A stretch of 64,000 nt of DNA from Thuidium tamariscinum (lineage: Eukaryota > Streptophyta > Bryopsida > Hypnales > Thuidiaceae). Location of the stretch: positions 30,023,501 to 30,087,500 of the forward strand of contig OX344749.2 of assembly GCA_947034885.2 (NCBI GenBank). Direction: 5' to 3'. The position numbers and the translations under genes are program-made. The first letter of the stretch is position 1. Every line of letters begins with the position of its first letter. Under the pieces are notes generated by a model, which was given only the letters and a program-made list of their open reading frames with translations, was not told the origin of the DNA and made no database searches. Below, in pieces: positions 9,471 to 34,272 of this stretch.

Positions 9471-9510
9471 AACACACACACACACGTGCGTGTGTATGTG
9501 TGTATATATA
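9471..9510. repeat. (CA)n/(TG)n palindromic microsatellite (copy A)
   Basis: A CA run, then CGTGCG, then TGTGTATGTGTGTATATATA, so the two halves can pair. The CA run is longer than in copy B (about 34236-34272). Confidence 0.85.
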
Positions 9511-11690: not shown

Positions 11691-11698
11691 TTGGGGAG
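11691..11698. other. Empty target site of a hAT-type element
   Basis: TTGGGGAG occurs once here. At the matching place in copy B it flanks the insertion at 36454-36915 on both sides. This is the unoccupied form of the site. Confidence 0.9.
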
Positions 11699-12733: not shown

Positions 12734-13680
12734 CCCCTAAAGGTTTTTGACTATGTTTTCACCAAAAATGCTCCAAAACTGTCATTTCTAATACAAGTGC
12801 AATTTTTTTTTTTAAAACACATTTTTGACTCATGTAACCGTAGGATCTTGTAGTAAGGTGGTTTGTAAACATGTGGAAAAAATTTCAGAAATTTTTACTA
12901 TGTAGATTGCAAGATATAAGCATTTGAATTGACAAAAATTGTTCTTTTATCCCTGCAAAAATCCGGACAGCTGCACTTCACGAGGTCACATTTGTATGAA
13001 TAAAATTTCAAAATGGGTGGTTACTTTTTGAATTCATACTTCAATGCAAGTTGCCTACATTCTCAAAAAATTTCAAACCATTTGGAATTGTACAACATAT
13101 AGGAAAAAATAAGTAAGTAGAAAAAAGTAAAAAAATGAGCCAAAATACTAAATTGTGAAAATTTTATTCATGGAATTGAAAATTTTCAATCCCAATGGTT
13201 AAAATGTTGTAATAAACAATCTACACCTTCTGCTTTTATTTTTTTCCAAAAATATGAAAAATTGAATTAAACGCAGAATTTCAAACTTTTTTTGTACTGT
13301 AGAGATTCTGTAACTGGCCGCAAACTACCTCAAACTCAAAATCTTCATAACTTTTGACTCCTTGATCGGAATGGATTGATTCAAAGCTTCCCATATTTGT
13401 ATAAACCTAAAGAACCAATTTGAACTTTCACTTTTTAAGAAAAAGCTTTTTTGAAAAAGTTTTTTGAGCTGCCCGGCTGCCCGCCGAGTAAAGAAAACAA
13501 CATATCCTGCCATAACTTTTTAAGTGTGAAGTCAAAAGTTATGAAAATTATTGGGCCTTAAAGCTACTCCTCGGGCACACATTGTATCAAAATTTCAAAG
13601 AAAAAAAATAAAAACTCCATCAATAGTGAGCTGACCAAAAAATTTATAATCTCAAAATACGATGTTCCGGGCTTTAGGGG
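12734..13680. mobile_element. TTAA-target element, 947 bp (copy A)
   Basis: TTAA at 12730-12733 and 13681-13684. Starts CCCCTAAAGG and ends GGGCTTTAGGGG. Also present in copy B at 37966-38909, so it predates the duplication. No coding capacity. Confidence 0.9.
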
Positions 13681-13684
13681 TTAA

Positions 13685-14561
13685 GCAACGTTTAATGAGA
13701 GAACTCCCACATATTGTATTCCCAATGAGTTTCCATCTTCATTCTTTGTTGAGGGCAATATCCCATAAGCATTGTGCTTCATGAGACTCCTGTGAAGTAT
13801 AAGAAGCGTGGCTCTCTCATACCAAACAATGCATGTTGAGTATTTCTATATTGAAGAAGTACAAAATGCGTTGAAAATTGTATTGTACTTTGCATAGTGT
13901 ATAATATATTATATTGTATACATAATATCATACAAATTGTTTATCGTATTGTACAAATATTGTATACTAAACTAAATTTTTAATTGGTCCAAAATGTTGA
14001 AAATCTGCCTTCACACTAACAAACAAATTATTGAGAATGATTATTCCCAAAGAATAGAACAAGTACAATAACATGAGAACTCAAGTTCACGTGTTCCCAA
14101 AGAAGCAAGAAACGTTACCAAAAGCATGTACCAAAACATTGCTTCACCTAAACAACGCCTTTAGTCAAGGTTAAAACAATGTTTAAATGTCCTTCCAAGT
14201 TTACTTTTCTAGTGTATTGAACAACATCTAAAGTGATGCAAACGATACTTAATTCTAGTAGTGTTCACGAATGTAGAAGATGCAACTGGTTTTGGATTTT
14301 GGGGGGTTTCTTTCCCTCCCTATTTTTTAAGTATCCTTGGTAAGGATTGAACTTAGCTAAGGCCCTACCAATCTAGGGCCAAGGATATAGCCTTCGAAAA
14401 ATACAAGGATCCAATAGAGGGTCCAAGTATTTTCCGGACGCTAGTTAGTAAGGTTAGTATTGCAAGTCAAGAAATTTGAATACTACTATGATCATCAGTC
14501 TCAAGTGCCTTGAATGAATAAGATGCATTACTCCCACTAAATCTATTTGAATCAGCCAAAT
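13685..14561. other. Noncoding part of copy A
   Basis: Contains an AT-rich stretch with TATTGTATA-type motifs near 13880-13980. No gene seen. Confidence 0.4.
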
Positions 14562-15489
14562 GGGTTGTTGCAAGAAACACTTACTGTTTTTGGCTCAAAA
14601 TGACCTATTTTGATGAGTCTTGTGACTTTAAGAATAATTTTTTCTTAAATAAAATAAAATATAGATAGTTTGAGAGCAATGAGAATATTGTGTCTCTTAA
14701 AATTGAGACCTAAGAAAATTAAACCCTAAAAGTTATGCACAAGAAAAGCACAGTAGAAAATATAATGAAAATAGACACTTTCATGTTTGATATTATAAAA
14801 ATAGTAAAAAAATTCAATAAAATTCATTAAAATAATCCACTTTTTCTTACATCAAGATGCTTTTCTTCAACCATCTTTGAGAAAAATAAATTATATTCTC
14901 TACACCTTTGCAAAAGTAGTCCACTTTGAACACATGTGGAAGTTGGAAAATTTCTTTGTGGTCTTGTGCGACTTTAGTAAAAGTCCTTGCATGCCAATTT
15001 CAACTTTAAAATTTGCATTTTTGGGTCAAAAATACGACTAAAAAAACCCCAAATGGCCAAGGTGGACATCCAATTGGAGGCTGTTTTAAAATAGTAAAAT
15101 AATTTTAAGAAATTTCAAAAAATGACATTATGTCTAGAACTTTTATATGTACCTTCATTTCAAGTTTTGTGTGAAATGGACAAAAAATGCAAAAGTTTTG
15201 TATTAGATAACCTTCAAGCCGTAGTAGCAATAAGAAGGTTATCGAACATAACTGGTTGTTCACTTTCAATCACAACCTTTGATCTTCATAATCCAAGAGT
15301 GTAGGAAGCAAGTTGAAACTTGAAAGGAAATAAGGTTATGAATTATAATTTGTGATGATGATGTCGATGGATAGCCTATAGCATAGAGCCACGCTAGCAT
15401 TGAAAAGTCAACAACCGGTTATGAGTAAAAAAACACCTCTCTAAGGCCAAGGGGACAAAAAATAAGACAAGTGTTTCTTGCAATCACCC
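14562..15489. mobile_element. GGGTTGTTGCAAGAAA-type TIR element (copy A)
   Basis: Starts GGGTTGTTGCAAGAAACACT and ends AGTGTTTCTTGCAATCACCC, nearly perfect inverted ends, 928 bp. The 4-bp flanks do not match here, unlike three relatives further right. The matching element in copy B is 39910-40844. The open frame at 15122-15304 lies inside and is not a convincing gene. Confidence 0.7.
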
Positions 15490-16198
15490 AAGAACAAGAA
15501 GATTAGGGTAGGGGATTTGCAAAGAATGGTTCTATGTAATCATACCCTAAAAGTCCCTAAAATTTATGTCCCCCCATTTATTGGTGTAGTAAAACTTAAA
15601 AGAGAAAAATTCCCACTCAGTGCATACTACGACATCAACAAAGGCAAGGAGAGAGAAACCTACATGCAAACGATCACACCAATTAGAACAATGTAGATTA
15701 CAATTATGAGAAAGCAACAATAGGTGAGAGGACAATGAGTGACTGCATAGTGTAACAATATGAGGAAGTGGTGGCCTAGTGGGACCATGAGAGGTAAAAT
15801 TGACAAGTTCACATTTGGCAACCTTGTGTCACATTCAAAAATCCTACAAGCCACATTATAGCTCATCAATGGCTGAGAAGCTAGGGCTTGACAACTAAAA
15901 CCAATGGTCCTAGTGCAGTTATTAGAAGTTAATCAATGGCCAATGGATGTGTAATTGGGTACTTGGGTAGATTCACATAATTCATTGATTCCAAAGTCAT
16001 TCACTGTTGATGCCTCTTCACAAAGGATAATTAGTATTATAGACTTATAGGTATACTATATACATGTTAAAATTAATTCCTAGAAAGTATATGCCCGGTC
16101 AGCTACTTGTCAAAAAAAAGAATTTTCAATTGGTCATTTTCCTACATACTCCAAGGGCAAATGGCCAAATTGCCGGGATTTTTTTTCCTAATTGGCCA
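15490..16198. other. Right end of copy A, noncoding
   Basis: Shared with copy B up to 16198. Short open frames overlap on both strands without support. Confidence 0.4.
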
Positions 16199-16659
16199 CA
16201 TTAGGGGAGGAATGAACCCTGTTTGGGGCTGCTCTGAGATGCAGAAGTTAGTTTAGGAACATGCCATTCAGAACTTACTACTATCAGATATGGCCTGAAG
16301 ATTTGCAATGATTGATTTGAAATTTGCAATCATGTATGTCTCTCTGGCTTTTGATAACGGTTGAGATGGTTCTTGAACTGCAATTTTTTGACAGCGCACC
16401 CACCAATATTTGACGTGGTTGGCGCCAATGTTGACGTGTGATCTTTGGCGCCAAAATCAGGGCGCGAATTGTGGACTCAAATACTGCATAGCGGACGTAG
16501 CGATCAAGTTTGATCGACGATGACAAAAGTCACGGTGAACTTGCAGTTCAAAATTTTGAGCTTGCAGGTTTAAATAGAGAAATTTTTGTGGGAACATAGA
16601 ATCTTGAAGTTGTCAATTTTGAAATCAACATGTAAAGGCGCCAAATTCTCTCAGGTTGA

Positions 16660-16850
16660 TCAATGGGTAGTCTGAATTCAGAAATCGAGTTTCAAGTTCA
16701 TCGATCCATACTTTGTATTCAGAAATCGTGCTTCAAGTTCATTGATCAGTAGTAGGTATTCACAGATCAAGTTCCAACTTGATTGATCTATAGTTTGCAT
16801 TCACAGATGAAGTTCAATTCCAACTTCCAAGTTGATCGATTGCTTGTTTG
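16660..16850. repeat. Imperfect tandem repeat, ~60 bp unit, about 3-4 copies
   Basis: Units contain ATTCAGAAATCG(A/T)G(T/C)TTCAAGTTCAT or the variant ATTCACAGATCAAGTTCCAA, each followed by a GATC(A/C) motif. Confidence 0.7.
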
Positions 16851-17129
16851 TATTTTGGAGTGCTGAAGTGCTGGAGATCTGGAGTAACAGGGTTTCAAAT
16901 CTGATAGAGCAGGTACTTCATTTACAAACTCACGTTGGATGATATTCACGTGTTCTACTATAGCGTTACAAGCAGTTACCATGGGAAAGGATTTAATAGT
17001 GTCATGTAACCCTACATGTAACTCCAATATAACTTGCCATGAAATCAAGTTTGCAACTGGTTTCCAAGGTTGGTTCCTTTAGAGCAGAAATTAAAACCTT
17101 CTGTTAATTAAATACCCTCAGACCAATGA

Positions 17130-17625
17130 GGATTACTACGACCAATGCTTGTAGACACTTACTTCAATCACCAAAGTGACCAAACTTTGATTAGCACGTT
17201 GAATTTGATCACCAAAACTTGATCAATTGATCACTTGCATATTGGACTTAAATACTTCGATGAATAGACTTTCATCAAAACAGGAATTGATCTCTTATAG
17301 TCACTAGCTAGCTACGACCAGTGCTTGTGCAAACTTATTTCGATCAATTAAATCCGATCACCAAAACTTGATTAATTCATCACTTCCACACTAATGAAGA
17401 TAACTTCAATTGACAGACTTTCACCACTGCAAAACTTGATTTCGTAGTCACTAGCTAGGTATGACCAGTGCTCGTGGATCATCCAGAGACTTACTTCGAT
17501 CACCAAACTTTGATCAGTTGAATTCGATCACCAAAACTTGATCAATTGATCACTTCCATACCAGACTTGATCACTTTGATCAATAAACTTTCATCACTAC
17601 AAAATTTGATCTCTTAATTAAGTCT
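17130..17625. repeat. Imperfect tandem repeat, ~145-180 bp unit, 3 copies
   Basis: Anchors ACCAATGCTTGT (~17140), ACCAGTGCTTGT (~17318) and ACCAGTGCTCGT (~17464). Each unit carries GATCACCAAAACTTGAT(C/T)AATT and AGACTTTCATCA-type blocks. Confidence 0.75.
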
Positions 17626-17827
17626 ACTATAGCTAACACAAAATGAGTATTACACTTCTAGGACTGTCGCAACGGAGTCGTTTGTATCGTACCTCTCTAC
17701 ATTTTGAGATCAGGAAGAGTATCATGTTCTAGTCCTATGCTTCTACTTGAAGCTCATGTGCTAATGAGAGACATGTTGAATGAAACTCTGCTTTAACTGC
17801 GATGCAATGATTTCACCTTCCATCACC

Positions 17828-17876
17828 ATGCAGTTTCTATGCAGTCTCCATGCAGTCTCCATGCAGTCTCCATGCA
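17828..17876. repeat. Short tandem repeat, CATGCAGTCTC unit, about 4 copies
   Basis: CATGCAGTTTCTATGCAGTC followed by further CCATGCAGTCT units, ending CATGCAAATAG. A unit of about 12 bp. Confidence 0.9.
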
Positions 17877-18214
17877 AATAGTAATTGAAGCCGTCAATCC
17901 GACTTAACATCGATCCTACAACAAACGAACTGGTAAGTCAGGTCATCACAAACTTCAATAGTGCTATATCTGTGCTTTAACTTCTAGCTTATATAGATGA
18001 TCAAAGACATTGAATTAGTAGTACACACTTAGAGTTAATATGTTTAAAGTTTTATTGAAAGTTTTTCTGAAGCTATTAGTGTTTCATTTAGTTTGATTCA
18101 CTATCAAAAAGTGTAGACAAATAGATCACTTTCTAGTTTGACACTTTGACCTTGCAGGACACAGTATCTCAAAGTTGATCAACGAAATCAATCAAACTTT
18201 GCTGTTTTGAAAGC

Positions 18215-19555
18215 ATGGCAAATTTGAATACATATAAAGTGCAAGTATCATTACACCCAAAATATGCACCGTTAATTCAAAGAGGGAAGAATATCAACCA
18301 GCAAGAGCCACGTTCAACTTTTCCAGAAAAACGAAAAGCAGGAGAGTCACACTTGGATTTGTGGCTGGACGGATCAATTTACCCAGTAGACCCTCGCACA
18401 GGAAAACGACCGAAATTCAACTGCCTTAAAGGACTATTGGAATTCGTTGGTGATGGAACAAATGGTCTAATGGGATACACTACTAATCTTGAATCACGAC
18501 CCAATGAAGTTATTGAGAGGTAGTATATTATTGATATGGGAACTTTCAAAGAACAAGTACTTCAACTTCAAAGAGAACTTCAAGAAACGCAACTGCAATT
18601 GCAATCAATACCGGAATTTCAAAGTGAAATTCAAATGTTGCAAAGGGAGAGAAGTTTACTTGATGAGCGATTGAATACTCTGACTATGCAAGTATACACC
18701 GTTCAAGCTGAGAAGCAGGGCTTGGAATTGACAAGTCGATTGGAGAGCGAATCTCACGCCTCTGAGAAACATGCATTGTTGGATTTGCACAAAGAGGAAC
18801 TCAAAGCAGTGAGAAGTGAACACTCAAAGACCAAAGCTACTTTAAATCGTGTATTGCAAAAATTTGAGAGGCTAAAAAAAACTCCACTTAGGTACCGTAT
18901 GCAGGTAAGACAAAGAAAAGATCTTTGCAATCTTTCTCAAACTGGGGGCCATGCTAAAGCTCAAAAAAGACTTTTACGAAGCATTCTTGGACCTGAGACA
19001 GCAAGGAAGGTCCAAGAAAACAATGCAAATACTAGACGATCAGGGCGACTATACGGAGATGAGAATGCACAAATCCAATCTGGACGTCTGTTACGAAGCT
19101 TTGTATCCAAGACTGAAATAAAGTCCATGCTAGATTCACCTTCTATGGGTTTCATTGGAAAAAAGTACGTCAGTTCCTATTTGGATGAGATTGGAAAACA
19201 TATATCGGTCCTGAAGTAGTTCTTGAAGTTGCTGATAATACAGGTATTACTAGAGAGGGGTATAGTTCTTTCTTCAAAAAATTCAAGGGTGCTGCAAAGC
19301 TTGCAGGTTCAGGAATTAGAATAACATGCCTGCCCAATCCCCATCAAGTGAAACAATTGAGGCTTGAAATGAACAACAAGCTCCAAGATTTGATAGGAAA
19401 GCATCGTTACATAGAAAACACTCTCATACTCTCATCTACAAATTCAAAGGTGAAGGGTCCAGTGAAGTATGAACTCTCACAAAAGAACTCATTCTTCACT
19501 GATGTCGAAGTCGTAATGTGCACTATGGTCCGGTTGTATGGTTTTACACCAGAAG
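18215..19555 (+). pseudogene. Transposase-like gene, N-terminal coiled-coil part (disrupted)
   Basis: Begins at ATG 18215 (MANLNTYKVQVSLHPKYAPL). The frame continues through an in-frame TAG at 18521-18523 into a long coiled coil (residues of the LQLQRELQETQLQLQ and LQRERSLLDERLNTL type), then a basic segment. At the GGAAAACA run (about 19194-19200) the frame shifts by one base: before it runs SSYLDEIGK, after it YIGPEVVLEVADNTGITREG and on to LYGFTPE. One missing A would explain the shift. The exon probably ends at 19555 before GTGCGT (phase 1), which joins in frame to 20202. The two breaks suggest a decayed gene, though the homopolymer shift could be an assembly error. The role of this part is unknown; oligomerisation or DNA binding is a guess. 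Confidence 0.65.
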
Positions 19556-19669
19556 GTGCGTTCCAAAATCATAAATATTAAATGATATTAAAATTTCAAA
19601 ACAAAATAAAAGTTCTCTTACCTTTAAAATTGTAGGCAATCAGCTATAGTCCATTACTGTAAGCAATTA

Positions 19670-20115
19670 GACTTTCATCAGACTTTTATTAGACTTCGAT
19701 CAGACTTTGATCAGACTTTGATCGATCATACTTCGATCAGACTTTGATCAGACTTTGATCGATCATACTTCGATCAGACTTTGATCAGACTTTGATCGAT
19801 CAGACTTCGATCAGACTAGACAATCAAACTTTGATCAGACTAGATCAAACTTTGATCAGACTACACAATCAAACTTCGATCCGACTAGAATATTAAATGA
19901 TACTAAAATTTCAAAACAAAATAGAAGATCTCTCACCTTTAAAATTGACTTGCGTTCCAGTTGCAGTTGGAGTCCATTACTGTAGAGAAATAGACTTCGA
20001 TCAGACTTCTATAACTGCAGACAATCAAACTTCGATTAATCTTCAATGATCAGACTTCAATCAGACTCCGATCACTGTAGACAATTAGACTTCAATTACA
20101 CTTTGATCAAAGCAG
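19670..20115 (+). repeat. GATCAGACTT repeat array inside the transposase-gene intron
   Basis: Many copies of GATCAGACTT(T/C)(C/G)ATC and CGATCATACTTC, roughly 10-bp spaced with a higher-order unit of about 45 bp, within the inferred intron 19556-20201. The same GATCA core pervades the 5' flank. Confidence 0.85.
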
Positions 20116-20201
20116 AAAGAAAACAACTCACATTATATTAATCTCATCAAAGAAGTAGAATTCAATTGAAGATTAACACATATGTTGGTGATCCATCACA
20201 G

Positions 20202-21837
20202 AGGTTCAAGGCAAACCTTTAATATTTGTACTGAAACTTGACGAGGCAGAAATCATACACATGCAAAAAATGGAGAGAGTATCAATCACAATCATGAATC
20301 GTGCTCTAGACTCTAATATCTTACCCAATACTCCAGAGTATTTCAGCGTCCAATCCGAGCGTGAGATTTGGCCAATATGTAGTTTCCAGGTACCGAAAGA
20401 AACTCATGAGGTCTTGAAGTGGGTTTTTGACCAGACAAATCTTCCAAATCTAATAGCTGCACACGAAGCAGGTCAACTTTTAAAAGTACCGGAGGTTGGA
20501 GAATTTCAAATAGAATGGCATTTATCAGCAGACATGAAAACCATTAAGAGCATGTTTGGCTTAAAAGGTGGTGCCAACAGTAAATATTGTTGCATTTATT
20601 GCAACCAAGAAAGGAGTAAAGTTGAAGTTCGTACAGTAGCTCATGCAGTTGAATCATTTTGTAGAAGGAAAATGACTTGGTCAGATGGATTATTCTCAAC
20701 TAAAATCCCTGCAGGACCCCTCCCTGCAGCTGAACGTACTCAACGTTGGAAGCCTGTTTTACCAATACCACTTGAACGTGTGCACATTTGCACCCTGCAT
20801 TGTTTAAATAGAATTGTTGAGAAAATCCTGCATCTACACTTTATGTTTCTGTGGACCATCCGAGATACAACTCAACAAAAGTTAGCCATCGAAGAGATGC
20901 AAAGAGTCCTTTCAGCCACTGGTGCCCATGGTGGAAACGTTTTGATCTTCAAAGATGCTGAGCTCAGTGGTAAATCAAACAATGTTCCAAATAAACCATC
21001 TCTAAGTGGAACTAATTGTTCAAAAATTTTCAAGGCTAGCACACTTCCTGGAGGCTCAAATAAGGTGTGGAAAGACATTGTACATGCACTTCGAAATTTC
21101 CAAGGTGGAGGAGAACAAAAAAGAGCTCTACTAGAGATGTGGGCTGCCCTTGATGAACTCAAGCAATACTTTACAAAGTTATCTTTAACTGATGAACAAA
21201 GGCATTTGTTTAAAATGAAGGTGGAGAGTTTCGGTCGTCTTTATGTTCACTGTTTTGGAGAACAACATGTGACCCATTACATGGTTTGATTTCATACTAT
21301 TTTCTTTTTCTCCCTATCAATTATTTTCTAAAAATACTAAAGGAAATCAAAGTGGCTTCATTGGATTAACTTTAAGATAAAACTAAAGTGGGTTTATAGT
21401 ACTAACCTGTTTTTGAATTATGCTTGCAGCATGTTTTAGTGAAGCACGCCACTTGGTTCGTAGATGAATATGGCAGTTTGTCAGTATGGTCATGTCAAGG
21501 GATGGAGTACTCTCACCATGCAGCAAAGTCTGCGTATTTCAAGCACACTCAACATTCTGGTGGAACAACCCGCAAAAGTGCTCTATTGCAAACTTTTGAA
21601 CATTGGTTCAGAATAATACAACACCGCTTTCGAAATAAACAAATAGCTACCACAGACCACGCCAGAGATGACACTGACGACGAAGCTATTGAAGCTCTCA
21701 TCTTAGGTCGTAGGGAGAGGTCTCTTGCATCTAGTGCACAAGCACATTGGGAAAATTGGAGGCTAAACTGTACTCGACAAGGGTCAAAATGGGTGCCAAA
21801 TTCTTGCATCGAAGTCTTACCAGAATCTGAACTTTAG
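20202..21837 (+). pseudogene. Transposase-like gene, RNase H-type catalytic part (two exons)
   Basis: Inferred exon 1 is 20202-21283 (after AG at 20200-20201) and exon 2 is 21430-21837 (intron 21284-21429, GT...CTTGCAG, phase 0). The join 19555/20202 gives FTPE then EVQGKPLIFVLKLDEAEI. Candidate acidic triad: D in FVLKLDE, D in WHLSADMKT, and E in CQGMEYSHHAAK. Between the last two lie a CxxC pair (YCCIYC) and a conserved-looking VHICTLHCLNRIVEKILHLH block, then a helical insertion. The C-terminus ends SCIEVLPESEL. The layout fits a DDE transposase with an insertion domain before the last acidic residue. I cannot assign a superfamily. These exons themselves have no stop or shift; the upstream part does. 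Confidence 0.65.
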
Positions 21838-21888
21838 TGAAAGGTAAACCTTTGCTTTAGTAATCGTCTTCCTTGTTCTTCTATCCAC
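21835..21888 (-). pseudogene. Second, decayed copy of the last exon of the 25324-26833 gene
   Basis: On the minus strand, after GTTTTAG at 21889 and beyond, the sequence reads VDRRTRKTITKAKVYLSLK. This parallels VNRRSEKTKTIAEFLPFIEV in the exon 25324-25404. Nucleotide similarity extends on the plus strand through TGAAAGGTAAA and TTCTTCTAT and into the intron (AAAGCAAATGTTA). It sits directly against the stop of the transposase gene, tail to tail. Confidence 0.6.
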
Positions 21889-22386
21889 CTAAAACATTAA
21901 ACAAAGCAAATGTTATACCACAATACTGACATGGTAAACCTCAACTGCAGTGAGCTCAATTGCAATCTCTGAATGAAGAACACTTGCTCAGTGAGCTCAA
22001 TTGCAATCTCCGAATGTAGAATTGGTCAGCTCTGAATGAAGAATGACCTGCAAAGTGTTGGAGGATTGTCGCGCAGGAGGGGTAAAATCGGTGTGCTGTT
22101 ATCCACTTCAATGTAACTAAGCCTGTACCCATGTACCATGTAATTAGCATTCAATACAAGGGAAATAATACAAAAGGCATGTACATAGTAGTACGTGAAT
22201 TTAGAGACACAATCTTAGGATACAGATGACCCATTACTGTACCTATGGGAGTAGTAGCATAAACAGACTAGGACTAGGACTTGCTAGAAATGCTACCGCC
22301 GTTCCTTCTTACGCAGTTCTCATCGTTCAAGGGTAGTATAGGCTCGTGATTGGAACCTTACTATTTCAAACTTCACAATTGATCAC
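21889..22386. other. Spacer without a recognised gene
   Basis: Contains a short direct repeat, CAGTGAGCTCAATTGCAATC, at about 21949 and 21990. No gene seen. Confidence 0.45.
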
Positions 22387-23763
22387 TTATTCACATGGTA
22401 TCCACATTTTAGTGTGCTGAAATTCCACGATTCAGATCCACGATTCAGATCCAAATAACAGCCAAGGGATTGAATTTCCATACAAATCTGATACCACTCA
22501 GAAAATTCTAGTACGACCATACCTGCATAATTTGCTCCTGAATATTCTGCATTTGAAGTCCGTCCACATTGGCCTCGGATGCAGGATGGTCTCCAACCTG
22601 TTTCACCAAATATTAGGTTCAAGGGAGATTTTGTAGCCATATCCAGATCTTCCTCACCAAATTAGAAGACGTTAGTTGATACACTACCTGAATTAGAATA
22701 CGATTTGATTAGGTCTCATATTAGAGATTGAGATAGGATATCTAGCAAAGAGCATTGAAAGTGACCACTCACCAGTTGGCGTTCCAACAATTCATCAACG
22801 GCCCACTGGTACTTCAATTGGTCTAATCCAAACCACTCTGCAAGTCGGTCTTCAACCTCCTCCCACCCTAACACCACACCCTAGCATTGTCATTTTTTAA
22901 GTATATTTCTCAATTTTCCTAGGTATAATATGAAGGGAACTGGTCGACGCATATCCAGATTTAAATTCAAATTTGGAAAACGGAATATTTCCATTCCTAC
23001 ACTTTTTTGATTGCGTTTTTGGTTGTTTAATACTAAGAATTTTTCGATTCTCCATTCAAAGACTCTGTTCTTAAGTTCAAAGATTTAAAAACGCTCAACT
23101 TATTCTTGATTTAGAAACAGAACAATAAGAATGATCTCTAACGAAAATTGATGATAATTACGATCTTGAAACCCTAAATCAAAGTTTGCACTGAAAGCAT
23201 TGCATTCAAATTAGAAACACTGAAGTCAGTCCAGAACTACCCTGCCTGCAATCCTGTCAAAACCCTTGCATCGCCGATTCACGCCCGTCTCACAATTATC
23301 TCGGGTATCTAATGAACTGCGCTGGAATACAGCCAGATTTTAGATTATAACGCCCTTGAAACCCTAACATCAAGTGCGCAATACCTTCGCAGCATTTGGG
23401 CTTCAGATTGCAAACCCTGAAGTTGGTGGAAATTCACTGACCTGCCTGCAATCCTGTCGAACCTTAGCATTGCCAATTCACGACCGTCAAATATCTCGGG
23501 TATCTAATGAAGGTTCGGTCCCAGGCGCACATCCACTTGATTTTGAATTCTAACGCCCTGGAAGCCCTAACTACAGGTGCGCCTAAAACTAGCAACAAAT
23601 TACAAAATCAGAAGTCAGTAAAATTTAACTGACCTGCCTGCAACCTTGTCCAGAAAGTAGTTGATTTCGCAGCAGCGTTTTGTGGAGCCTCTACGTCGAA
23701 ATCCAATTGTGCTTCGGGGTCGGAACGAGTAGAAGAAGAAGCCATCCGAGCGTCGTCGTCCAT
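22387..23763 (-). CDS. Uncharacterised 109-residue protein, four exons
   Basis: Inferred exons, 5' to 3': 23763-23634, 22867-22773, 22597-22523, 22416-22387 (330 nt, 109 residues plus stop). Donors are G|GTCAGT, CTG|GTGAGT and CAG|GTATGG; acceptors are GTTAG, AACAG and TTTCAG. Phases (1, 0, 0) match at every join. The protein starts MDDDARMASSSTRSDPEAQL and has an acidic, helical core (GWEEVEDRLAEWFGLDQ, then KYQWAVDELLERQL), followed by VGDHPASEANVDGLQMQNIQ and a short terminal exon HTKMWIPCE. No signal or membrane segment. It looks like a normal, intact small plant gene, unlike its transposon neighbours; it may be host DNA or captured. The start is uncertain: another ATG in a different frame lies at 23903. 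I cannot name the family. Confidence 0.7.
23140..23650 (-). repeat. Tandem repeat, ~195 bp unit, about 2.5 copies, overlapping an exon end
   Basis: Anchor CCTGCCTGCAATCCTGTC occurs at 23241, 23441 and, as CCTGCCTGCAACCTTGTC, 23633. Blocks ATCTCGGGTATCTAATGAA and GAAACCCTAA recur with the same spacing (periods of about 200 and 192). The rightmost unit contains the end of exon 1 of the 109-residue gene, so the two intronic units carry copies of its splice-donor region. Confidence 0.8.
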
Positions 23764-24422
23764 GATACCTCGAACTGCAGCAGCGGATTGGCCTCCGACA
23801 CTATAGAGTGTGGCCGAGGATCGTCCTCAACCTTCTTCATGAATGCGTTGTTTCTTTCTTTGTCGAGGACTAATCGTGGACGAGGTGGAGGACCTGCCGC
23901 CATGGATTCTTAGAACTCCGATCCGTTCTTTCACAAAAGAATTCCAGTCACCTCTTACCAAATTTCAAACGAATTACAATCGTCCCTTCCAAATTGCAAA
24001 TGAATTTCAAATGACGCTTCTAAACGTCAAACGAATTTCAAGCAGGAGCTTCAGAATATGGGGTACTCAAAATGGCCGGCAGGGAGTGATCGAGATGCGT
24101 GGTTGGAATCCCAAATTCACCAAAGCGTACTTTGAAGCCAAGAACCAATTTCATTGAAATCAAAGTGGAACTTCACACTCCTCCAATATCCATAGCACCT
24201 TCCTCAATCGTCAACAAGTCCCAACACACTGCCATTGACATAACATGCACAATTAACATGCACAATTGCCATAACATGCACAATTGACGTAAGGATTGAG
24301 CAATGAAACTTGTAAATTGACAATACGCTAAAAACAGCATAGTGTTGCACAATGGCAACTCTAGTACACGATACTCGCTGGTGTCAGGAGATTACAGAAC
24401 ATGTTGGAGGAAAAAAACTCAC
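23764..24422. other. 5' flank of the 109-residue gene
   Basis: A minus-strand frame from 23903 (MAAGPPPRPRLVLDKERNN...) overlaps the start of the four-exon gene in another frame. It could be an upstream open frame or an alternative first exon with a donor at GAG|GTATCA. CATGCACAATT repeats occur near 24244-24285. No further gene is firm. Confidence 0.35.
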
Positions 24423-24458
24423 CTGCAAGAACGGCCTGACCACTGGGTCTCCCAGTCT
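24423..24458 (-). other. Isolated exon-like segment, 36 nt
   Basis: Bounded on the minus strand by CTTTTTTCAG and GTGAGT, in the form of a typical internal exon. One frame reads RLGDPVVRPFLQ. I found no partner exon that joins convincingly. Confidence 0.35.
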
Positions 24459-25289
24459 CTGAAAAAAGATATGAAATGGTCAGTTCTAGCTTGGATTTAG
24501 AATAACTAAACTCGCACGAATGAATAGTGTGCGAAGATGTAACAAAACAATGCGGTCCCACACTTCTTCGGAAACCACAGGGGTTCGATGCATACCACTG
24601 ACAAGGCGGGAAATATTTTTGCACAAAATAGGCTCACAAAACACAGTTGAAAAGCAACACTTCAAGACAATGACGCTAAAAAAACTCTAGCAGCGAATTC
24701 CTCAGAGTAACACATTCCAAGCTGCTAAATCCCAAAAACCTGAGACCTAATTTAAGCGTGTGGATACAGTGGTGTGAAGATTGAAGAATGTTGACATACT
24801 CGGAATGCCATTTTCCCGACGATCCTCTAATCCATTCACTGATACTGTTGTTGCAGAAACATCCTGCCCTCCAAGAGCTTTGGCACCGTGCCACCGTGAC
24901 CTAAAACAGGTCATCCTTGCTTCCTCACAACCCGCAATTTGTAAAGAAGCAAAACGGGGAACAACCACAACACCTGGTCGATGAAGATTGCTGCAATTCC
25001 TGTGCTTGTGATGGCGTAGAGTGGGGACAACACGGGGATCTCCATGATGATGGTGTTCGCCATCACTGAGCATTCCGATTCCCACCAAAGGGATCTCCCT
25101 GCAAATCACAAAATGAGAACTGTTAAAGTAGTACTAACACTAGAAACATTTCAAAAAACTCAGCTTTTGACAAAACACTACTACAATTAAAGTAATGTTG
25201 TAATTACATTCACAATAAGATTATATCAGAAAATATAAAAAACGCTATAAGATTAAAACCGGACAAAAGTCTTACCAAACGACCCTCAA
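24459..25289 (-). other. Unassigned region with exon-like pieces
   Basis: On the minus strand a piece near 25096-24915 follows GATTTGCAG. One frame runs SVMANTIIMEIPVLSPLYAI and then a hydrophobic VLWLFPVLLLYKL to a stop. A second piece near 24900-24795 follows TTTTAG and ends at GTATGT. Frames and joins are ambiguous. It may be a broken host-gene fragment carried with the element. Confidence 0.25.
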
Positions 25290-25323
25290 CCGTAAAACAA
25301 TGCCAAGAGCTGCATCGACATCG
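25290..25323 (+). pseudogene. Remnant of a second transposase-gene 3' end
   Basis: Plus-strand CTGCATCGACATCGTCAATC and the following CATGAACTT...TGAAAGGTAAA align with TTGCATCGAAGTCTTACCAG and CTGAACTT...TGAAAGGTAAA at the end of the 20202-21837 part. The match is imperfect and continues past 25323 into the antisense of the neighbouring exon. Confidence 0.45.
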
Positions 25324-26833
25324 TCAATCCTTAGCATGAACTTCGACTTCAATGAAAGGTAAAAACTCTGCTATAGTCTTTGTCTTCTCTGATCTTCTAT
25401 TTACCTGAAACAGAAATGAAAGCAAATGTTAGAGCTTTAGAGTTAAAAAATAAAATGATGAATAATGTAACAATTCACATTAATGCTCTACTCTTCTCTT
25501 TACCTAGAACATCAAATTAATCCTAACTAATTCTTGATTTCCTACTAAAAAAGTGATGACTAATGAAACAATTTAAAGGAATAAAGGTCTTGGAAGCATA
25601 CCTTCAAAGTAGTAAGTCCTTCCCGAATAATGCTAAGATTGAAGTTTGGAGGGCATTTATCTCCTAAGCTAAATGAAATCTCTTGTCTCACATTGCTTAG
25701 AAGCCAATCTTTCCCAACTTCTACTTCAAGAATCTTATCCCCATACTTGCACTTCACATTTATAATCTCAATGGGTCCAATTTGATCCAGAGGCATCCAC
25801 TGTGACCCATCCATCAAGCGTTCCCGGTTGAATTGAAAGGTAGTGTATAGCACAGACCTAGCAATGTGAAAACGGAACACCATTGTGCTATGATCCACTT
25901 TGCACTTAATCACATCATCTCCCCTACTTACCTTAGCATCCCATCCACAATCCATCAAGGATTGGAGCAATGTTTCTGAAACATTGCGGAAAACAAACAT
26001 AGCACTAGTTTTGTGAATGCTAGGAGCTGCTGAAAAGAGATCAACCATAACATGCATTGGCATGAACCATTGCAAGTGAGTCTGCCTGCTCCCAGTTGTT
26101 GGCTTCATAGATGATAAAAAATCTGAGCGCATGCGGGCTCTATAAGATTCAGTGGTTAACATGTCAGGGAGAGGCCATGCAGGATCATTGAAATTTTCTA
26201 ATGGGATGGGTTCTAAATGCCCATATCTACCATTCATAGTTGGAGGATGGTACTATGCATTCTGGAAAAAAAGCTTGTCACTTAGAAGTTCTTTCGGTGT
26301 CCGTCCTCCTCTATATGCTTCTCCTATGTCTGCATGCACGACCATAATAACAGACATGATACTCTTCACATCTACAGAATCTTCATACTTCGAGGGGTAC
26401 AAATCTGTTGACAACAAATTCCTACCATTAAATCAAATGATGCAAAAAAACAAAAATTGCCCATAAATATGAAATAGGATCCTACTTAACATAAACAGTA
26501 ATGATGGACAATAGAAAACTTACAGTTTATCCCGAAGCTTTGAACTGGCATTGGTAGATTTGGATCCAATTCAAGCTGCCGATATTGATACGCATGTTGA
26601 ACAACTACATGTGTACCCTTCCCACTAGTAACAACAAATTTCACAATTCGAGCTTTGTATGCACCTTCAATGCTTTCCCCTCCATGCTTTCTAGCATCTT
26701 TACTGTGTCCTCCCCAAAATCCAGGTTGCAACAATACCCACGAATTGACCTCAAAGCGTCTTGGAATAGGTTCTCCATTCTCGTCCAAATCATTGAGCAA
26801 AGTGACAGCTTGAATGCTAGAGCGGGGTCGCAT
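25324..26833 (-). pseudogene. Second gene of the transposon-like locus (one in-frame stop)
   Basis: Inferred exons: 26833-26524 (start MRPRSSIQAVTLLNDLDENG; donor T|GTAAGT), 26404-25602 (acceptor CAACAG; donor AAG|GTATGC) and 25404-25324 (acceptor TGTTTCAG; stop TGA). Phases agree: N, Y (split codon), then LYPSKYEDSVDVKSIM. One in-frame TAG lies at 26255-26253, after KLFFQNA and before YHPPTMNGRYGH. The first exon has a possible SH3/BAH-like beta segment (FEVNSWVLLQPGFWGG...). The end of the long exon (IINVKCKYGDKILEVEVGKD, then WLLSNVRQEISFSL) and the last exon could form a ubiquitin-like fold; both are guesses. Upstream exons beyond 26847 (after GAATTTAG) are possible. I do not recognise a family. 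Confidence 0.6.
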
Positions 26834-29650
26834 TTTGGAAACCCTAAATTCTCAAAAGAAAACAAATTACACATAAGTTATTTGCAGAAATAAGCAACAC
26901 CATGACTTTCAAATCTGACGAGCAAATAATATTGTTGATCTGCTTATTTGCTTGTCAACAATAGGCTACGATAGTTTTTCGTATGTAGAATTGATCAATC
27001 ACCGTGCTCGTGCCGATCAGCCAATCAATCCAACCACATAACCTCATGAATTTAACGTCCCAGTCAACTTACACTTAATGTCTTTGAGCTTGGAGGTGTA
27101 AGATTATAGACTATGATCAGCAGAAATTAATTAGCTAAGCAACATGGAAATTAACTCAGAACCTTGAAACTTATTCTAATTTGATCCCAGATTTCGTCAG
27201 GCTTCGTCAGGCTGGTGATCACATATGAGTCTGAGCCATTGAGTTACATACTGATCAGTGGAGACCCAACTCCAGAACTCTTGTATTTACGCCACATATA
27301 GATATGAGATTTGAGATGAGTGTCATTCTGGTCTTGTTCCCAGTTATAGCCCAAGTTTTCTATTAGTGCATACCATGGAGGATATTCTGTGATGTATACA
27401 ACATAATTTCTTCATGCACAAAGATCCAGATAAGCTTAGAAAAACTAAAATTAGGATTTAATATGTGGCACGTGCTAACCGGTTTTGATATTCTCTGCTC
27501 AAAATTTTCGGAGTATTGAAACTGGACGTAGGATGCACATGTAGAATTTGACCTTCCTGCAGTTGCTTTTCATTTCATCCGCAACGAAACAGCCTGTCCA
27601 CATAGTCGGTGCATCACAAGTCAATTTTGAACGGACAAAGTTTAATATATTTCAAGACAATTACCTAGATGTTGGTGTAAGCTTTGCAATTTGATATTAA
27701 TTGTTTTGTAGGCTACAATAGTTGGCGCAGCAGCAGCTGCTAACTATGAATCAGCTTAGATGATTCGAAGCTTAACACCGATTGGCCCTACTGTGTACCG
27801 AGGATATACCAATTCGAGATTGCTGGAAGCATGCTTACTACTTCAGGGGGAATATCATCCAAAATAGTTTTGAAAGCTCAAACCAACTTTACTGAACCAA
27901 TGTGAATGTCTAAGAAACAAGATTAGAAGTGCAATTGTGGCTCTTTGAACAGTATAAAAAAGCGTAGTACACAAGATTAATTGGGTGCAGAGCAAGTAGC
28001 AATACAAAACCAGACAACACGAGCTTAAACTATCAAACCTACAACACACCATTCACGGTGTCTACCAAGTAGCACAGATTGACTTTGGTTACCCAAAGGC
28101 ACAAGTTATTATTTTAGCTCGTTGAGAATTTTATCAACTTATCAGCAAGTCCATTGGAATTAAATTTGGCATTAGTATGATCATAATTTCGTTCAATTCG
28201 TCTAAATTAGGGGCAAAATTTGAGACACAGATCTGCTCAAGGTCCAGAAAACTAACCTCGGACTGTTTGGGGGGCACTACCGCAAGTCAAGCATCTAAAA
28301 ATTGAAGTATAGTGTCATTACTTGAATACTGAGAGCTCACGATGGGAAAACTGTCATTGAAATGTAAGAATCCAAGAATTGAAAGACTCACCTCATTTTC
28401 GGCTTGCTCAAAGATTAGAGTGGACCAATAAATCCCATAACTGCAACCAGGAAAATCCGGATGCACTGCAATGCCACCTCAAGGACTGAAAGACGCTCTT
28501 TTAAACGGCAAAACTCATGAGCTTGAGAAGCGATCCAGATGATGACTCTGGAACGCAAATCAGAGAGATAGTTATATAACTCCAACCCAATAAGAGAATT
28601 AATAACCTGATGCTTCAAATACAGTGATCAAAGCTGAATTTGCAAATTGCTCGATCATTGCTGTAGCTCTCACGTGATAAGTCCACCAACCCTAAAAAAA
28701 TTGAATCGTTTCTGTTTTCTACTTCAAATACGGTAACCCACCACCAAAATTTGCAAATCGCACACATTACTTTGGTTTTCAAGCTTTGAGACATACCTTT
28801 CAATTGGCAAGCTGCAAGCTCCTCGGAAGCCAACTCCTCGCAAGCTGACTCCTCACAAGCCGTTACTCAAACAATTGAGTTGTGAATGGAAGAGTAAGCA
28901 ATGTGGGGTTGTAGACCGTGATGCAAGATTGAAGTTCAATGCAAGGAAAAAAACAATGGAAGAAATGGAGAAGATGCTCAACGATTAACACTATTTGTTG
29001 CGCCCCTCCTTGTGAATATCCATTCTTAGGGTTGTTGCAGTAGAATGGCATTGCCAAAATATTATTGATAGTACCTGTTTGGGGAGAAGCCTTGTTCGGG
29101 GAGAAGCCGCATCGTCACTTCAAGCAACCAACTAAGTAAGCCGAACCCGGAAGTGCATATTCCAACAGAAAGCCGTTGCGGAAAGAAATCCTACCCATAT
29201 CCCGCCATATCCTGCCATATCCTACTGTGATCATTACTAGTAGTGGTATGTGCTTGGCACATGCCTTTAGCCTATCAAAATGCTCCTTTCTAAGCAGTAA
29301 TGCCACAGTGGCCAAATTTGATATTTACTATTTCTTCTTTCTCATTATAAAGTAGTAAGGAAAGTTAGGAGCCATTTTTAAGGTTCACATCTCCTCTTTA
29401 GTTATACACAAATAAATTCAATAGAGAAACATGTTCCACAGTGCATTTTGAATTCTAAAATTCCCAACTTCAAATTGCAATAGACAAATCATCATTGCTC
29501 CAAATTTGATGGCCAATGGCTCATTGGAAGTAGAATACCCGTGCCCTCACATCTTGTTCATACCCCAAGAAGAACTAAGACCAAGAGAGTGTTCCAATTC
29601 CCAAAATTCAATTTAAAAGAACCAAAATTGGTTTGCTAGGCCCTAAAGGG
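26834..29650 (-). other. Region with no firm gene, some exon-like pieces
   Basis: On the minus strand a segment ending ...FEQAENE before GTGAGT (28393-28388) and another ending ...LACQLK-type sequence before GTATGT (~28797) look like exon ends, the latter containing a short GAGGAG(C/T)(T/C)(A/T)GC repeat. No joins could be made. The rightmost part ends in CCCTAAAGGG next to TTAA, like a TTAA-element end. Confidence 0.3.
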
Positions 29651-30141
29651 TTAAGGCATTTAACTAACAAAGTTTTCAAAATCTAAATTTGATAACCAAA
29701 GAATTACTTAACCCTCGAAGGACGGACTGGTGGCAATGGAAATCATGAATTTTGATACCGTGTGGCATCATCTACTTTGGATGAATAGTTGCAATTTTGT
29801 CCTACAAGGGGAGATTCTTTGTCATTCATTGGATGCAAAACGTCCGCTGTGGAGTTTAAGGGTTAAAATGCAAGCTCCACAAGACTGGTTGCCCAATTAG
29901 CGTTGATAGAACATCTTGAATCCTTTTGGAAAATGGCCCAGTATTGGTACTATATTGAGTAATGACAAATTTTCATTTAAATTCAAGCTCTAATGTAATT
30001 GTTATTGGGGCCTTCAATTCCACGGTCTCAACATGCAACCACCCAAAATCGGTTAATATGCAATATATAGAAGGCTTGCAGGTTGGCCCTTTAGGAGATA
30101 ATCATTATTTTCAACACTTTTCAAGCACTAATATGTGTATT

Positions 30142-31101
30142 GGGTCATTGCAAGAAACACCAATCCTTATTAGAAGAGATTTGAGGTGTGTAAGAGACTG
30201 TAAGTTCTCATAGTCTAAGAACATAGTGAAGTATAGATTTGCAGGAATCTGATATGGTAGGGGTAGTGCCACATTATTATTATTTTTAATTTAATAAAAA
30301 AAAATTAACTTCTTTTTACATTTTAGGACATTTAAAAAAAAAATGTTGGCTTGATAGCTCTTGGACGTTTTGGGAACTGTTTCGGGAATTGTCCTGAAAC
30401 GGCCCTTTAGAAGCCTCAAATTTCATCTAATGATTTCTCTTCACTGTGGGGGTTTACTTTCTTATTGCTTGCAATAACTTTTGAAGCACAAGTCCAATGA
30501 ATATGCAATTTTTATTGAACTTGTCTAACTTTATGGTAGTTAGATACTTCATTTTTTAGAAACTAAATAAAAATATTTTATATTTAAAAATCATTTTTGT
30601 TCAATTGTCACAAAGTGGGATTTAAGGTTTTTACTACGTTATGAGTTCCCAAATTTAATGATCTAGAGTTCAATCTTTCATGGTCTATTTGCAATGTAGA
30701 AATCCACATATCTACAAAAAGAAATCTAAAAATATATTATTTTATGTCCTCTACATGAGTACAAACAACACTCCCATTGTGTGCAATTTTTGAATATTGA
30801 AGATGGTTCTTAAATCATTCTTTTGTGAAATCTCATCACCATCAACTTTTCCAAAATGTCCAATTTTAGGTTTTTTTATAATTTTTTTTGTATTTTTTAT
30901 AAATTAAAATGTGAAATTACAATGACAACAATTATTTTCATGAGATTTACACTTTTCTAGTTCTCCTATTTAGAGAATTTTTCTATGCATTTTTTTCCAT
31001 AGGGTACCTTCTTTTTAAAGGTGTATACATGAAACATTTTTTTTTCAGAATTTTTTTTCTAATTTTAAAGTATTCTGTAAGAAAAAAATAATGATTGCTC
31101 A
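30142..31101. mobile_element. GGGTCATTGCAAGAAA-type element, uninterrupted form (copy B)
   Basis: Counterpart of 4751-6640 without the inserted TTAA element. Starts GGGTCATTGCAAGAAACACC. The right terminus is missing here too. Confidence 0.6.
30655..30658. other. Empty TTAA target site
   Basis: Single TTAA in CCCAAATTTAATGATCTAG, matching the occupied site at 5266-6197 in copy A. Confidence 0.93.
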
Positions 31102-31571
31102 AAATGCAATGTTTTTGCATGGTGTTTCTCACAATGACCTTGCTAATCAGTGCAACTTTCCCTTCATTTCGTGGAAAGCCTTTTTATATTGGAGATTCTT
31201 TTCTTTCTTTCTTTTTATATTACAAAAAAGTCCATTTGATGTTTGGATTGTTGGCTTTACATCGAGTCATTTTGTTCAAAGAAAATACCGGCATTACGTA
31301 GGCTACATGGAGTGGCCCTCTATTTGTTGATATAGGGCTTGTTTTTTGAGGATGCATAGCACATGCCCTTATCCGTGGATAGTAGCCTCTAGCGTGGGAT
31401 GTTTTTAAATTTGTCCTTGACAATGATCAAATTGGCTTTGTGAAAAAGCAAGTGAATCTCTAGAGGAGATTGGACTCATCATTGTATAAATAGAACGATA
31501 AACAAAGTTTGACAGTTAGACTAGTATGCTTGAACTCAATTACTTTGTTTAGGAACAAACATTTGCACACC

Positions 31572-31883
31572 ATGGCAAATTTTGTTGAAATGGCGGTATT
31601 CCATTTGCCATTTTTCAAACCACATCATGTGAACTAAAAGTTGACATCTAAGACAACTATAGATTTTCAAACATCTAAGCCACATATAGATTTCAAAAAT
31701 CTACAATAGATTTTGATTTCAAACTGTGCAGTCTAAAACATCCTAGATGGATATAGTTTTTAGACATCTACGACACTTATAAATTTCAAAATTCTATAAT
31801 AGATTTAGATTTCAAACTACACAACTTGAATTGTAAAAAGTGTCAAAGTAATGGAATGCTGCTATTTTAATGAAATTTGCCAT
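31572..31883. mobile_element. Small TIR element, ATGGCAAA family (copy B)
   Basis: Counterpart of 7111-7424 with a few substitutions. Confidence 0.7.
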
Positions 31884-32252
31884 ACACAAATTAAGTACAA
31901 GACACTTTATTTTACTTCATCAAGTGTGAAGGTACAAAACACTCATAAACTATATGGTGCACAACACAAATTCCCACATCTCCACGTCTCCGATTCTTGC
32001 TCATAGCTTCAGCGTCTAGCAACTTGGCAGCACCCCCGACAGCAACTGTACGAAAAAACACCAACTTGGAAGCCAATACTTAATATTACAACTGATAAAC
32101 GTGATAGTAACCCAGATAGTAAACGTGAATACATGATACAACTACAAAACAACTAAGCGAACTAACCCTAAAACCCTAACCCCTGCCCCTGAACAAAACA
32201 ACTATGGGGAGCTTCTTCTTGGACCAGTTGTTGAAGCTAGGCCGATGAATCA

Positions 32253-32576
32253 TCAATTTCCTTGCTTGTCCTCGTTTGAAGTTGCGTACCAAACGCACAC
32301 CTGCCCATCATACTCAATTGTGATGGCCCTGACATTCCGTTTAAGGAATGTCGTATCAAGAATCAATCCATCTCGTGATACGACAGGAACCTGATGAGGA
32401 CCCCTCAGTACGTATTCATAGCGGCTTTGTTTTGGATTGATTTTTAGAGGATAATAGTCATCCCTACCAACATGTGGCTTCAGTTTTCCCATAGGCCTTC
32501 GCATGCTTTCGTACACTCGATAGAGATCAATCTCAAATTGGGTTCTATTGATCACTTGGATTTCTATAATGGCCAT
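32253..32576 (-). CDS. Uncharacterised 107-residue protein (copy B)
   Basis: Paralogue of 7792-8115, starting MAIIEIQVINRTQFEIDLYR. Same length, frame intact. Differences from copy A: S3I, I5E, K11R, G26R, K38R, K58R, K62Q, K66V, K83R, V88E, E104K. Four are lysine to arginine, and two (I5E, K66V) need more than one base change. The core LDTTFLKRNV and DGQVCVWYATSNED is kept. Function unknown. Confidence 0.7.
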   Translation of the reverse strand: MAIIEIQVINRTQFEIDLYRVYESMRRPMGKLKPHVGRDDYYPLKINPKQSRYEYVLRGPHQVPVVSRDGLILDTTFLKRNVRAITIEYDGQVCVWYATSNEDKQGN

Positions 32577-32837
32577 CTTGATTCAGTCCACCTGCGCAAT
32601 CCCGGCCAATCACTGTAATTTTCACATCAAATATGATCGATCATACAATTGTAAGAACTAACGACACTTATAGGCCTGTGGTCATACTTGCTATTATTTT
32701 AATGTAGGAAATTCTTGTAGCCCTTCTAACAAGGAATCCAAAAACATGATTATATGTATGAAATGAATATTCTTTGAGGACAATAATAGCATTAAAAACC
32801 TAGTTATATGAATTTTCTTAATACATGTATCATAGGC

Positions 32838-32983
32838 CAAGCTACCCAACCTTGGAGGCTTTTTAATAAAAATTTAATTTTAATTAAAAAGAACTTCTTG
32901 TATGGATTTTTAAAAACTATTTATAGGTGTTTCAATTCTTCATTATATTGTAAGTTTTTGTTTTTTTCTAAAATGTATGTAAG
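32838..32983. other. Copy B-specific insert left of the small TIR element
   Basis: AT-rich sequence starting CCAAGCTACCCAACCTTGG that is absent from copy A. Together with 32984-33200 it replaces about 60 bases of copy A. Origin unclear. Confidence 0.5.
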
Positions 32984-33200
32984 GGAGAGGCACCCAATGG
33001 CGCACCTGTATCCAATGCCGTCTGTTTCTACAACACACAATCATTTCAGGCTATAAATGTAGGTAGGTAGTACATGGCTTATTTCTTTTGACCTAAAACA
33101 ATAAGTAGTCTACAATCCTGCTACATTTCTATTCTAGAATGAAGGACTGACTTAGAAATGGATGGCATTGGGTGCAAGTGCGGCATTGGGTGCCTCTCCT
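32984..33200. mobile_element. Small TIR element, GGAGAGGCACCCAATG family
   Basis: About 217 bp. Left end GGAGAGGCACCCAATGGCGC; inverted right end GGAGAGGCACCCAATGCCGC, with TIR similarity over about 37 bp to CCAATGCC. Flanks TAA/ATAA may contain a short target duplication. Non-autonomous. Found complete only in copy B; a possible remnant lies at 8375-8400. Confidence 0.8.
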
Positions 33201-33426
33201 ATAATGCAACATTTTTTACACATAATTTTCTTCTAATTTTCCCTTCACCTAATTTTTTGGTCTTCTTAATTTGATATAATTTTAACAAAAGCCATCCTCT
33301 AAGCCATTTTAATATTGATGATCCCTACGTATATTACAAAAGTTGCACACTCAAAATATAAACAAGAAAAAAATGTATTTCTCCTATGAGACTGGGGATC
33401 TACTATATCATCAAATAAAAGTTTAG

Positions 33427-33782
33427 TCCATTAGAAAGGTTTTGAAGGTAAGAGAAGCCCATTTTAGGGTTGTTTCCCAACCCATTCCTTGTGGTGTGAG
33501 ACTTCGAGAATATTGTGAACCAATTCTATCCACTGAATTTTCCGAATTTTTGAAAAATTTAAATTAAAAATTTCTCAAAAATTCAAAAAGTGTAAATAAA
33601 CCTAAAATTGATTTATTTTAATTTCAAAGAATTCAAAAAAATTCAAAAATTCAAAAAAGTAATATTTTTTGAAATGACAGTCTCTTGACTACATCAAACT
33701 ACTCATGTGGCATGTTCCCACAACCCAAGACCTCAAAAAAATTTGTGGTCTCTTATTGCCCTCAAATCCCTCCTAATGAGAG
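33427..33782. mobile_element. Small TIR element, TCATTAGA family (copy B)
   Basis: Counterpart of 8652-9006. Confidence 0.6.
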
Positions 33783-34235
33783 GATCTAAATACGGAATAC
33801 AAATATGGAATTGAATATAAGATACTATACAAATATGAATACTGCTACCAAATACATATGCAATATGTATTGTATCCGTACAAAATATGGATATGGTCAT
33901 ATGGATACAAAACACATACAAATATCACATTAATCTCATATCATTTGCAAGTTGGATTGCTTCTTGAAAAATACAAGTATGTGGAGGGGCGATAACAAAC
34001 AAAATGTAAATATGGGGTGAGCAATTATTGAGTTCATTAGTTCAGTTTGCAACACTTTCACGCAATGTCCTCAAACAATGTCCAATGGCCTCAAAAGAGG
34101 TAGGAACTGCCTTTCACATGTTCTCAGAGCAACAAAATTGTATACAAAGCATTAAAATCCAGGATGAGTAGAGATCGGAGATCCGGGCAAGACGGCATGG
34201 AGATATATGTGGCAATTTCTTGAAACCCTGACTCC

Positions 34236-34272
34236 AACACACACACACGTGCGTGTGTATGTGTGTATATAT
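34236..34272. repeat. (CA)n/(TG)n palindromic microsatellite (copy B)
   Basis: Shorter CA run than at 9471-9510, otherwise the same. Confidence 0.85.

Follow-up and report, generated by a model that had tools for sequence, protein, structure and literature searches.

A convergent two-gene transposon in the moss Thuidium tamariscinum with a putative transposase resembling RAG1

Here, we analyzed a stretch of 64,000 nucleotides from the moss Thuidium tamariscinum (GenBank assembly GCA_947034885.2, contig OX344749.2, positions 30,023,501 to 30,087,500 of the forward strand), referred to below as the window. The window very probably contains a cut-and-paste DNA transposon, present as a damaged copy, whose two genes converge: gene 1 on the plus strand (18215 to 21837), which retains RAG1's acidic residues and zinc pattern (C2/H2), and gene 2 on the minus strand (26833 to 25324). 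RAG1 is the enzyme that cuts vertebrate antibody genes, and RAG2 faces it tail to tail. The origin of the RAG1-RAG2 partnership is an old problem, and a multicopy RAG1-like enzyme with a convergent, seemingly unrelated partner is naturally suited for comparison, as it can reveal how a partner serves a RAG1-like enzyme and whether chromatin reading arose more than once. An earlier note, made from the letters of this stretch, had proposed a two-gene transposon spanning 18215 to 26847. This extent proved too small, as the whole element (16199 to 29400) runs from 16199 to a right end at either 29302 or about 29400.

The two genes move as a tail-to-tail pair. We searched the source genome (363.2 Mb in 19 contigs) with the protein of exon C, the catalytic exon of gene 1 (20202 to 21283), and with that of gene-2 exon 2, and obtained at least 114 and at least 148 matches, respectively (the window's included in both counts). 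Merging matches by strand within 6 kb yielded 92 gene-1 clusters (again with that of the window) and 110 gene-2 clusters. A gene-2 cluster lay no more than 10 kb away from 64 of the 92 gene-1 clusters, in convergent orientation in all 64 cases; the other 28 had none at this distance. Within 20 kb, 67 gene-1 clusters had a convergent gene-2 cluster, 1 had one on the same strand, and 24 had none. When gene-2 clusters were placed at random (1000 trials), a mean of 0.66 and a maximum of 4 were linked. Among gene-1 clusters of at least 300 amino acids (aa), 50 of 56 were linked within 20 kb, all convergently, and 6 were not. Of the 110 gene-2 clusters, 64 were linked and 46 were not. Sister copies at different sites were 99.3 to 99.5% identical. 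The earlier proposal that both genes belong to one element, which would sit badly with copies that never contain both, is borne out by this convergent linkage and by the terminal repeats found to either side of the gene pair in the copies examined.

These copies share inverted terminal repeats that start with CATTAG. Comparison between copies revealed sharp breaks at CATTAG on the right (gene-2) side in 9 loci from 3 families, and 7 loci (C9, C3, C5, two near-identical C6 copies, C2, and C11) had left ends that also begin with CATTAG. In the C5 copy, the left end (CATTAGAAGCGACTTGGACCCTC) and the right end (CATTAGAAGGGATCTGGACTCTC) are alike at 19 of 23 positions by eye. Inverted repeats around both genes, as the earlier note had suggested, were present on both sides of 6 distinct copies outside the window. 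Some observations weigh against this picture of common ends. A fourth comparison (L038/L032) broke within a gene and not at an end, and for C9 and C11, the left end was assigned from the motif rather than from a copy-to-copy break. Among five further left-flank stretches, one held a left end and four held none, and the C8 copy was without its left part. Finally, a scan of 30 gene-2 loci for an end motif, itself built from ends already seen, gave 19 loci scoring at least 15/23, a count that has no shuffle control.

The two C6 copies (C6:10376622 and C6:10429762; L010, L011, L043, and L044) lie 53 kb apart. Their right parts, flank included, match perfectly over 3642 bp, and their left parts, again with flank, are 99.7% identical over 1801 bp. 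Since the flanks are also identical or nearly so, this pair probably reflects a segmental duplication and not two insertions.

Gene 1 consists of pieces at 18215 to about 19200, about 19200 to 19555, 20202 to 21283, and 21430 to 21837, with in-phase joins at 19555/20202 and 21283/21430. Exon C lies inside a 365-aa open frame, the longest in 18000 to 22000; in dinucleotide shuffles of this region (n = 500), the longest frame averaged 107 aa and reached at most 211 aa. By this test, the plus-strand spliced frame reported earlier is real. Its 5′ part (18215 to 19555, the N-terminal region) is not a matter of simple splicing: a TAG stands in frame at 18521 to 18523, and a frameshift lies near 19200. 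This exon is similar to sister copy L039 along most of its length, and L039 retains 463 open codons across the region that is damaged in the window, indicating that less damaged relatives exist. The candidate N-terminal coiled coil was assessed by eye only. The first two acids and the CxxC pair fall in exon C, and HxxxxH and the catalytic E fall in the last exon (21430 to 21837). We aligned 7 gene-1 copies, selected from 13 stop-free ones among 30 loci; the D-D-E triad (LKLDE, SADMK, and QGME) and the CxxC pair, both of which had been picked out earlier from the sequence alone, were invariant in 7 of 7, as was the HxxxxH that precedes the E.

The earlier note had left the transposase unplaced; database and profile searches with the joined exons now point to RAG1. 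Judging from these comparisons, gene 1 very probably encodes a RAG1-like DDE transposase, with RAG1 as its best, if weak, match in PDB and Pfam. The joined protein matched RAG1 and nothing else in all of PDB (best E of 0.018), and RAG1 was likewise its sole Pfam match (E of 0.1). The references were RAG1 of the mouse and portions of that of the zebrafish. Mouse RAG1 found its best match in the window at 20372 to 20650 (E of 0.12), and BLASTP of gene 1 against it gave 21% over 346 aa (E of 4e-4 in a single comparison). The Smith-Waterman score of gene 1 against RAG1 was 72 (2000 shuffles; mean, 35.7; maximum, 64). In this alignment, at an overall identity of 24%, RAG1 residues D708, C727, C730, H937, H942, and E962 each face the same residue, the first three in exon C and H942 and E962 in the last exon, with the exon junction adjoining the H937 match. 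The spacing from H942 to E962 is identical (20). The first D was placed by position only, because RAG1 D600 falls outside the alignment. The Pfam RAG1 model was matched by 5 of the 7 copies (best E of 7.9e-4; bit score shown, 12.0), and hhalign against RAG1 returned an E of 6.1e-4 over 322 columns, a result that no column shuffle (n = 100) equaled.

Other results count against this assignment. The Pfam RAG1 bit scores shown (11.1 and 12.0) are below the cutoff of 25, and exon C alone had no Pfam match at an E of 1 and no PDB match at an E of 10. The hhalign probability for RAG1 was just 28.5%; with single sequences, E was 0.0075, compared to a best value of 0.016 in 30 shuffles. A profile of gene 1 found RAG1 in PDB at an E of 0.077, still as the top match. 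Solved Transib scored 13.9 bits with a profile of gene 1 plus mouse RAG1, versus 18.8 bits with mouse RAG1 alone. The N-terminal domains of RAG1 were not detected in the gene-1 protein. An unrelated PDB chain matched the N-terminal part of gene 1 (E of 0.062), and lysozyme was matched by 1 of the 7 copies (E of 0.036), so the PDB E value of 0.018 proves little by itself. Single-sequence AlphaFold2 predictions on single exons reached a mean predicted local distance difference test (pLDDT) score of 34.5 and 34.0 and gave no usable fold. In wider searches, no CACTA transposase model matched in Pfam at an E of 10, viral contig and genome contig collections yielded no relative, tblastn against plasmids and phages gave no match, and NCBIfam gave none either; PHROGs returned one match at chance level.

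Gene 2 lies on the minus strand in three exons (26833 to 26524, 26404 to 25602, and 25404 to 25324) that join in phase at 26524/26404 and 25602/25404. The three-exon frame proposed earlier thus stands as far as its phases go, and it is broken by an in-frame TAG near 26255, in exon 2. The window copy probably yields an intact product of neither gene. The gene-2 protein (6 members) had no match in Pfam, BAH included, and no match by sequence to RAG2, kelch, or PHD in Pfam (same members) or PDB (profile). The sole PDB match of its profile was the BAH domain of BAHCC1 (weak; E of 0.33), in an alignment that covers the domain's C-terminal half and part of gene 2. In hhalign comparisons with four BAH sequences, the N-terminal half of gene 2 scored 21.4 (maximum of 19.0 in 100 column shuffles) and the C-terminal half scored 13.1. 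The C-terminal part is ubiquitin-like by eye only. These alignments make a BAH-like stretch in the gene-2 protein a tentative lead.

The two genes lie farther apart in the window than in most copies measured. We examined 16 loci for the distance between the gene-1 stop and the end of gene-2 exon 2: it was 189 to 1124 bp in 13, and in the other 3 the gene-1 exon lay outside the stretch; in the window it is 3765 bp. A skew toward short distances weighs against this comparison, as the sample covers 16 of 30 loci, each extending 1.5 kb beyond gene 2; genome-wide, the median gap between gene-1 and gene-2 matches is 2.2 kb, and other copies are also wider apart. Between the genes of the window lies an insert of about 3.4 kb (21916 to 25345), outside the core element, that is bounded by an 86-bp direct repeat (78% identical) and that matches the window only, among all loci fetched. 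A copy of the gene-2 tail, comprising the start of the last exon and its acceptor (21831 to 21915, minus strand), abuts the gene-1 stop and is 78% identical to 25346 to 25431 (E of 5e-11). Given where this tail copy and its acceptor lie, the window element, too, probably had directly adjoining genes at one time. Inside the insert, a FAM177-like exon (22764 to 22895, minus strand; E of 0.01 to 0.016, below the cutoff) is perhaps a captured fragment of a host gene.

The data support insertion without target duplication. In 6 distinct copies with both ends found, the bases next to the ends were not shared at all in 4; C2 shared one base and C3 shared TA. A target-site duplication of more than 2 bp was seen in 0 of 6, as was a 3-bp duplication. 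We also compared the joined flanks of these copies with the window and the fetched loci. Empty sites for C5 were found in L019 (90% identity, 216 bp) and L029 (88%, 225 bp), both ungapped. For C11, two tandem units in L077 showed an ungapped junction, with a 3-bp gap 10 bp away, and for C6, window positions 58258 to 58080 showed an ungapped junction. The conclusion that insertion leaves no duplication is drawn from two good cases (C5 and C11) and a weak third (C6); the C6 site is 74% identical and covers only 21 bp of the left flank, which counts against the reading. Copies C2, C3, and C9 had no empty site among the window and fetched loci. Two candidate duplications were rejected: a 3-bp one at the ends of the window element (CCA/CCA, 16198 and 29303), which is absent in the 6 other copies and involves an uncertain right end, and a 5-bp match in C5 with each side shifted by one base, which by eye is unrepeated in other copies. 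Transib elements make a 5-bp target-site duplication, and Spy elements (PHIS group) are not known to make one. The present element resembles Spy in this trait, but its transposase is RAG1-like, whereas Spy transposases are PIF/Harbinger-related. The sites matched by C5 (L019:3375-3590 and L029:3307-3531) are themselves a palindromic repeat resembling a miniature inverted-repeat transposable element (MITE), with the empty target at its center.

We read the element as a new lineage near the transposases of RAG1, Transib, and the CACTA type (CMCT). Its novelty is likely as judged against the literature, with Repbase and Dfam outside the comparison. Literature searches on RAG1- and RAG2-like transposons in plants and algae returned PMC9435367 only, which reports an element of the RAG-like (RAGL) type in a stramenopile alga, with 5-bp duplications and both genes in the same direction, and counts 39 Transib-like proteins in plants. 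A search for RAG1-like transposons in Physcomitr found no paper, and, judged by title, searches on Transib or RAG1 in plants or moss yielded none on such an element and those on transposons without target-site duplication only unrelated work.

A rival reading, on which the element diverged from the CACTA/EnSpm type or another known CMCT group and is already listed in Repbase, is rather unlikely. PMC12730594 gives the CMCT clade a C(2)C and H(3-4)H pattern, mostly CA..TG ends, and duplications of 2 to 5 bp. Like Transib and CMCT elements (EnSpm/CACTA, Mirage, Chapaev, Plavaka, ESTA, and Lanisha), gene 1 carries C(2)C and H(3-4)H between the second D and the E, and the ends are 5′-CA..TG-3′, here CATTAG..CTAATG, as in most CMCT elements. 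In contrast to the duplications ascribed to that clade, the three empty-site junctions, one of them weak, show 0 bp. EnSpm/CACTA elements in particular are set apart by the lack of a match to the CACTA model in Pfam and of any 3-bp duplication in six copies.

It is improbable that the element is a true RAGL (ProtoRAG) transposon with a RAG2-like partner too divergent to be recognized. Its RAG1-like core with a convergent partner gene is the RAGL layout described in PMC7204232, namely convergent RAG1L and RAG2L genes between inverted repeats, with target duplications. It shares RAG1-type acids, CxxC, HxxxxH, and inverted terminal repeats with RAG-like transposons (ProtoRAG, TransibSU, and vertebrate RAG1-RAG2) and a convergent second gene with most RAGL elements. 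However, the gene-2 profile matched neither RAG2 nor kelch nor PHD in PDB or Pfam, the RAG1 N-terminal domains were not detected, the ends read CATTAG, and the 5-bp duplication is absent at the empty sites. We therefore regard the element as RAG type in its workings yet do not class it as RAGL, from which the partner (by sequence) and the target site both separate it. The reading of genes 1 and 2 as unrelated host genes or separate neighboring elements, suggested by their 3.8-kb separation in the window with a host-like exon between and by the clusters without a partner within 10 kb (46 of 110 for gene 2 and 28 of 92 for gene 1), is practically untenable given that the 64 linked gene-1 clusters of 92 are all convergent, which we count as refuting it, and that, in the copies examined, the gene pair lies between common terminal repeats.

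On the interpretation of a new lineage near RAG1, the gene-1 protein would pair both ends, excise them, and join them to the target at directly opposed phosphates; joining at such positions would leave no duplication. The gene-2 protein would be an obligate partner, perhaps binding chromatin through a BAH-like fold. Part of it aligns to the BAHCC1 BAH domain as in BAH-domain chromatin readers (BAHCC1, SHL, and EBS), from which it differs in the weakness of that match, the lack of a Pfam BAH match, and an aromatic cage that is not evident by eye. A more specific version, which we advance tentatively and consider possible but doubtful, is a deep RAG1-related lineage, separate from that of RAG1-RAG2, in which a convergent reader of the BAH type takes the place of the PHD reader of RAG2 and insertion is free of duplication. 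If true, setting a RAG1-type enzyme tail to tail with a chromatin reader would be an arrangement that arose repeatedly or is very old. Duplication-free insertion by a RAG1-like enzyme would in turn mark an unusual strand-transfer geometry.

In the window copy, the left terminal inverted repeat (16199 to 16221, plus strand; CATTAGGGGAGGAATGAACCCTG; compare the C5 left end, CATTAGAAGCGACTTGGACCCTC) begins with CATTAG at 16199, the motif common to the ends of other copies, and this position is also the exact stop of homology between two flanking 12-kb duplications. The right end is worn; family right ends from L018 and L028 align to 29344 to 29397, and TAATG at 29302 is an alternative. A blind terminal-repeat search of the window alone gave nothing above shuffles. 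Of the two boundaries of the 13.4-kb block that separates the 12-kb duplications, both considered as ends of the element, only the left one holds.

The 12-kb duplication is direct (window 4245 to 16198 and 29636 to 41553; mostly 96 to 98% identical). Its first copy stops exactly at the left end of the element, and the second continues without the element. The right flank in the window is unlike the sequence that follows the second copy, a point against our reading, so the second copy is not a proven empty site. An open frame of about 180 aa is present in both arms, on the minus strand (10325 to 10879 and 35088 to 35630), and its first copy had no Pfam match at an E of 0.1. Within the element, repeats based on TTGATCA/GACTTTGATCA occur in the gene-1 intron (19669 to 20110) and in the left subterminal part (17150 to 17620) and are possibly binding sites for the transposase.

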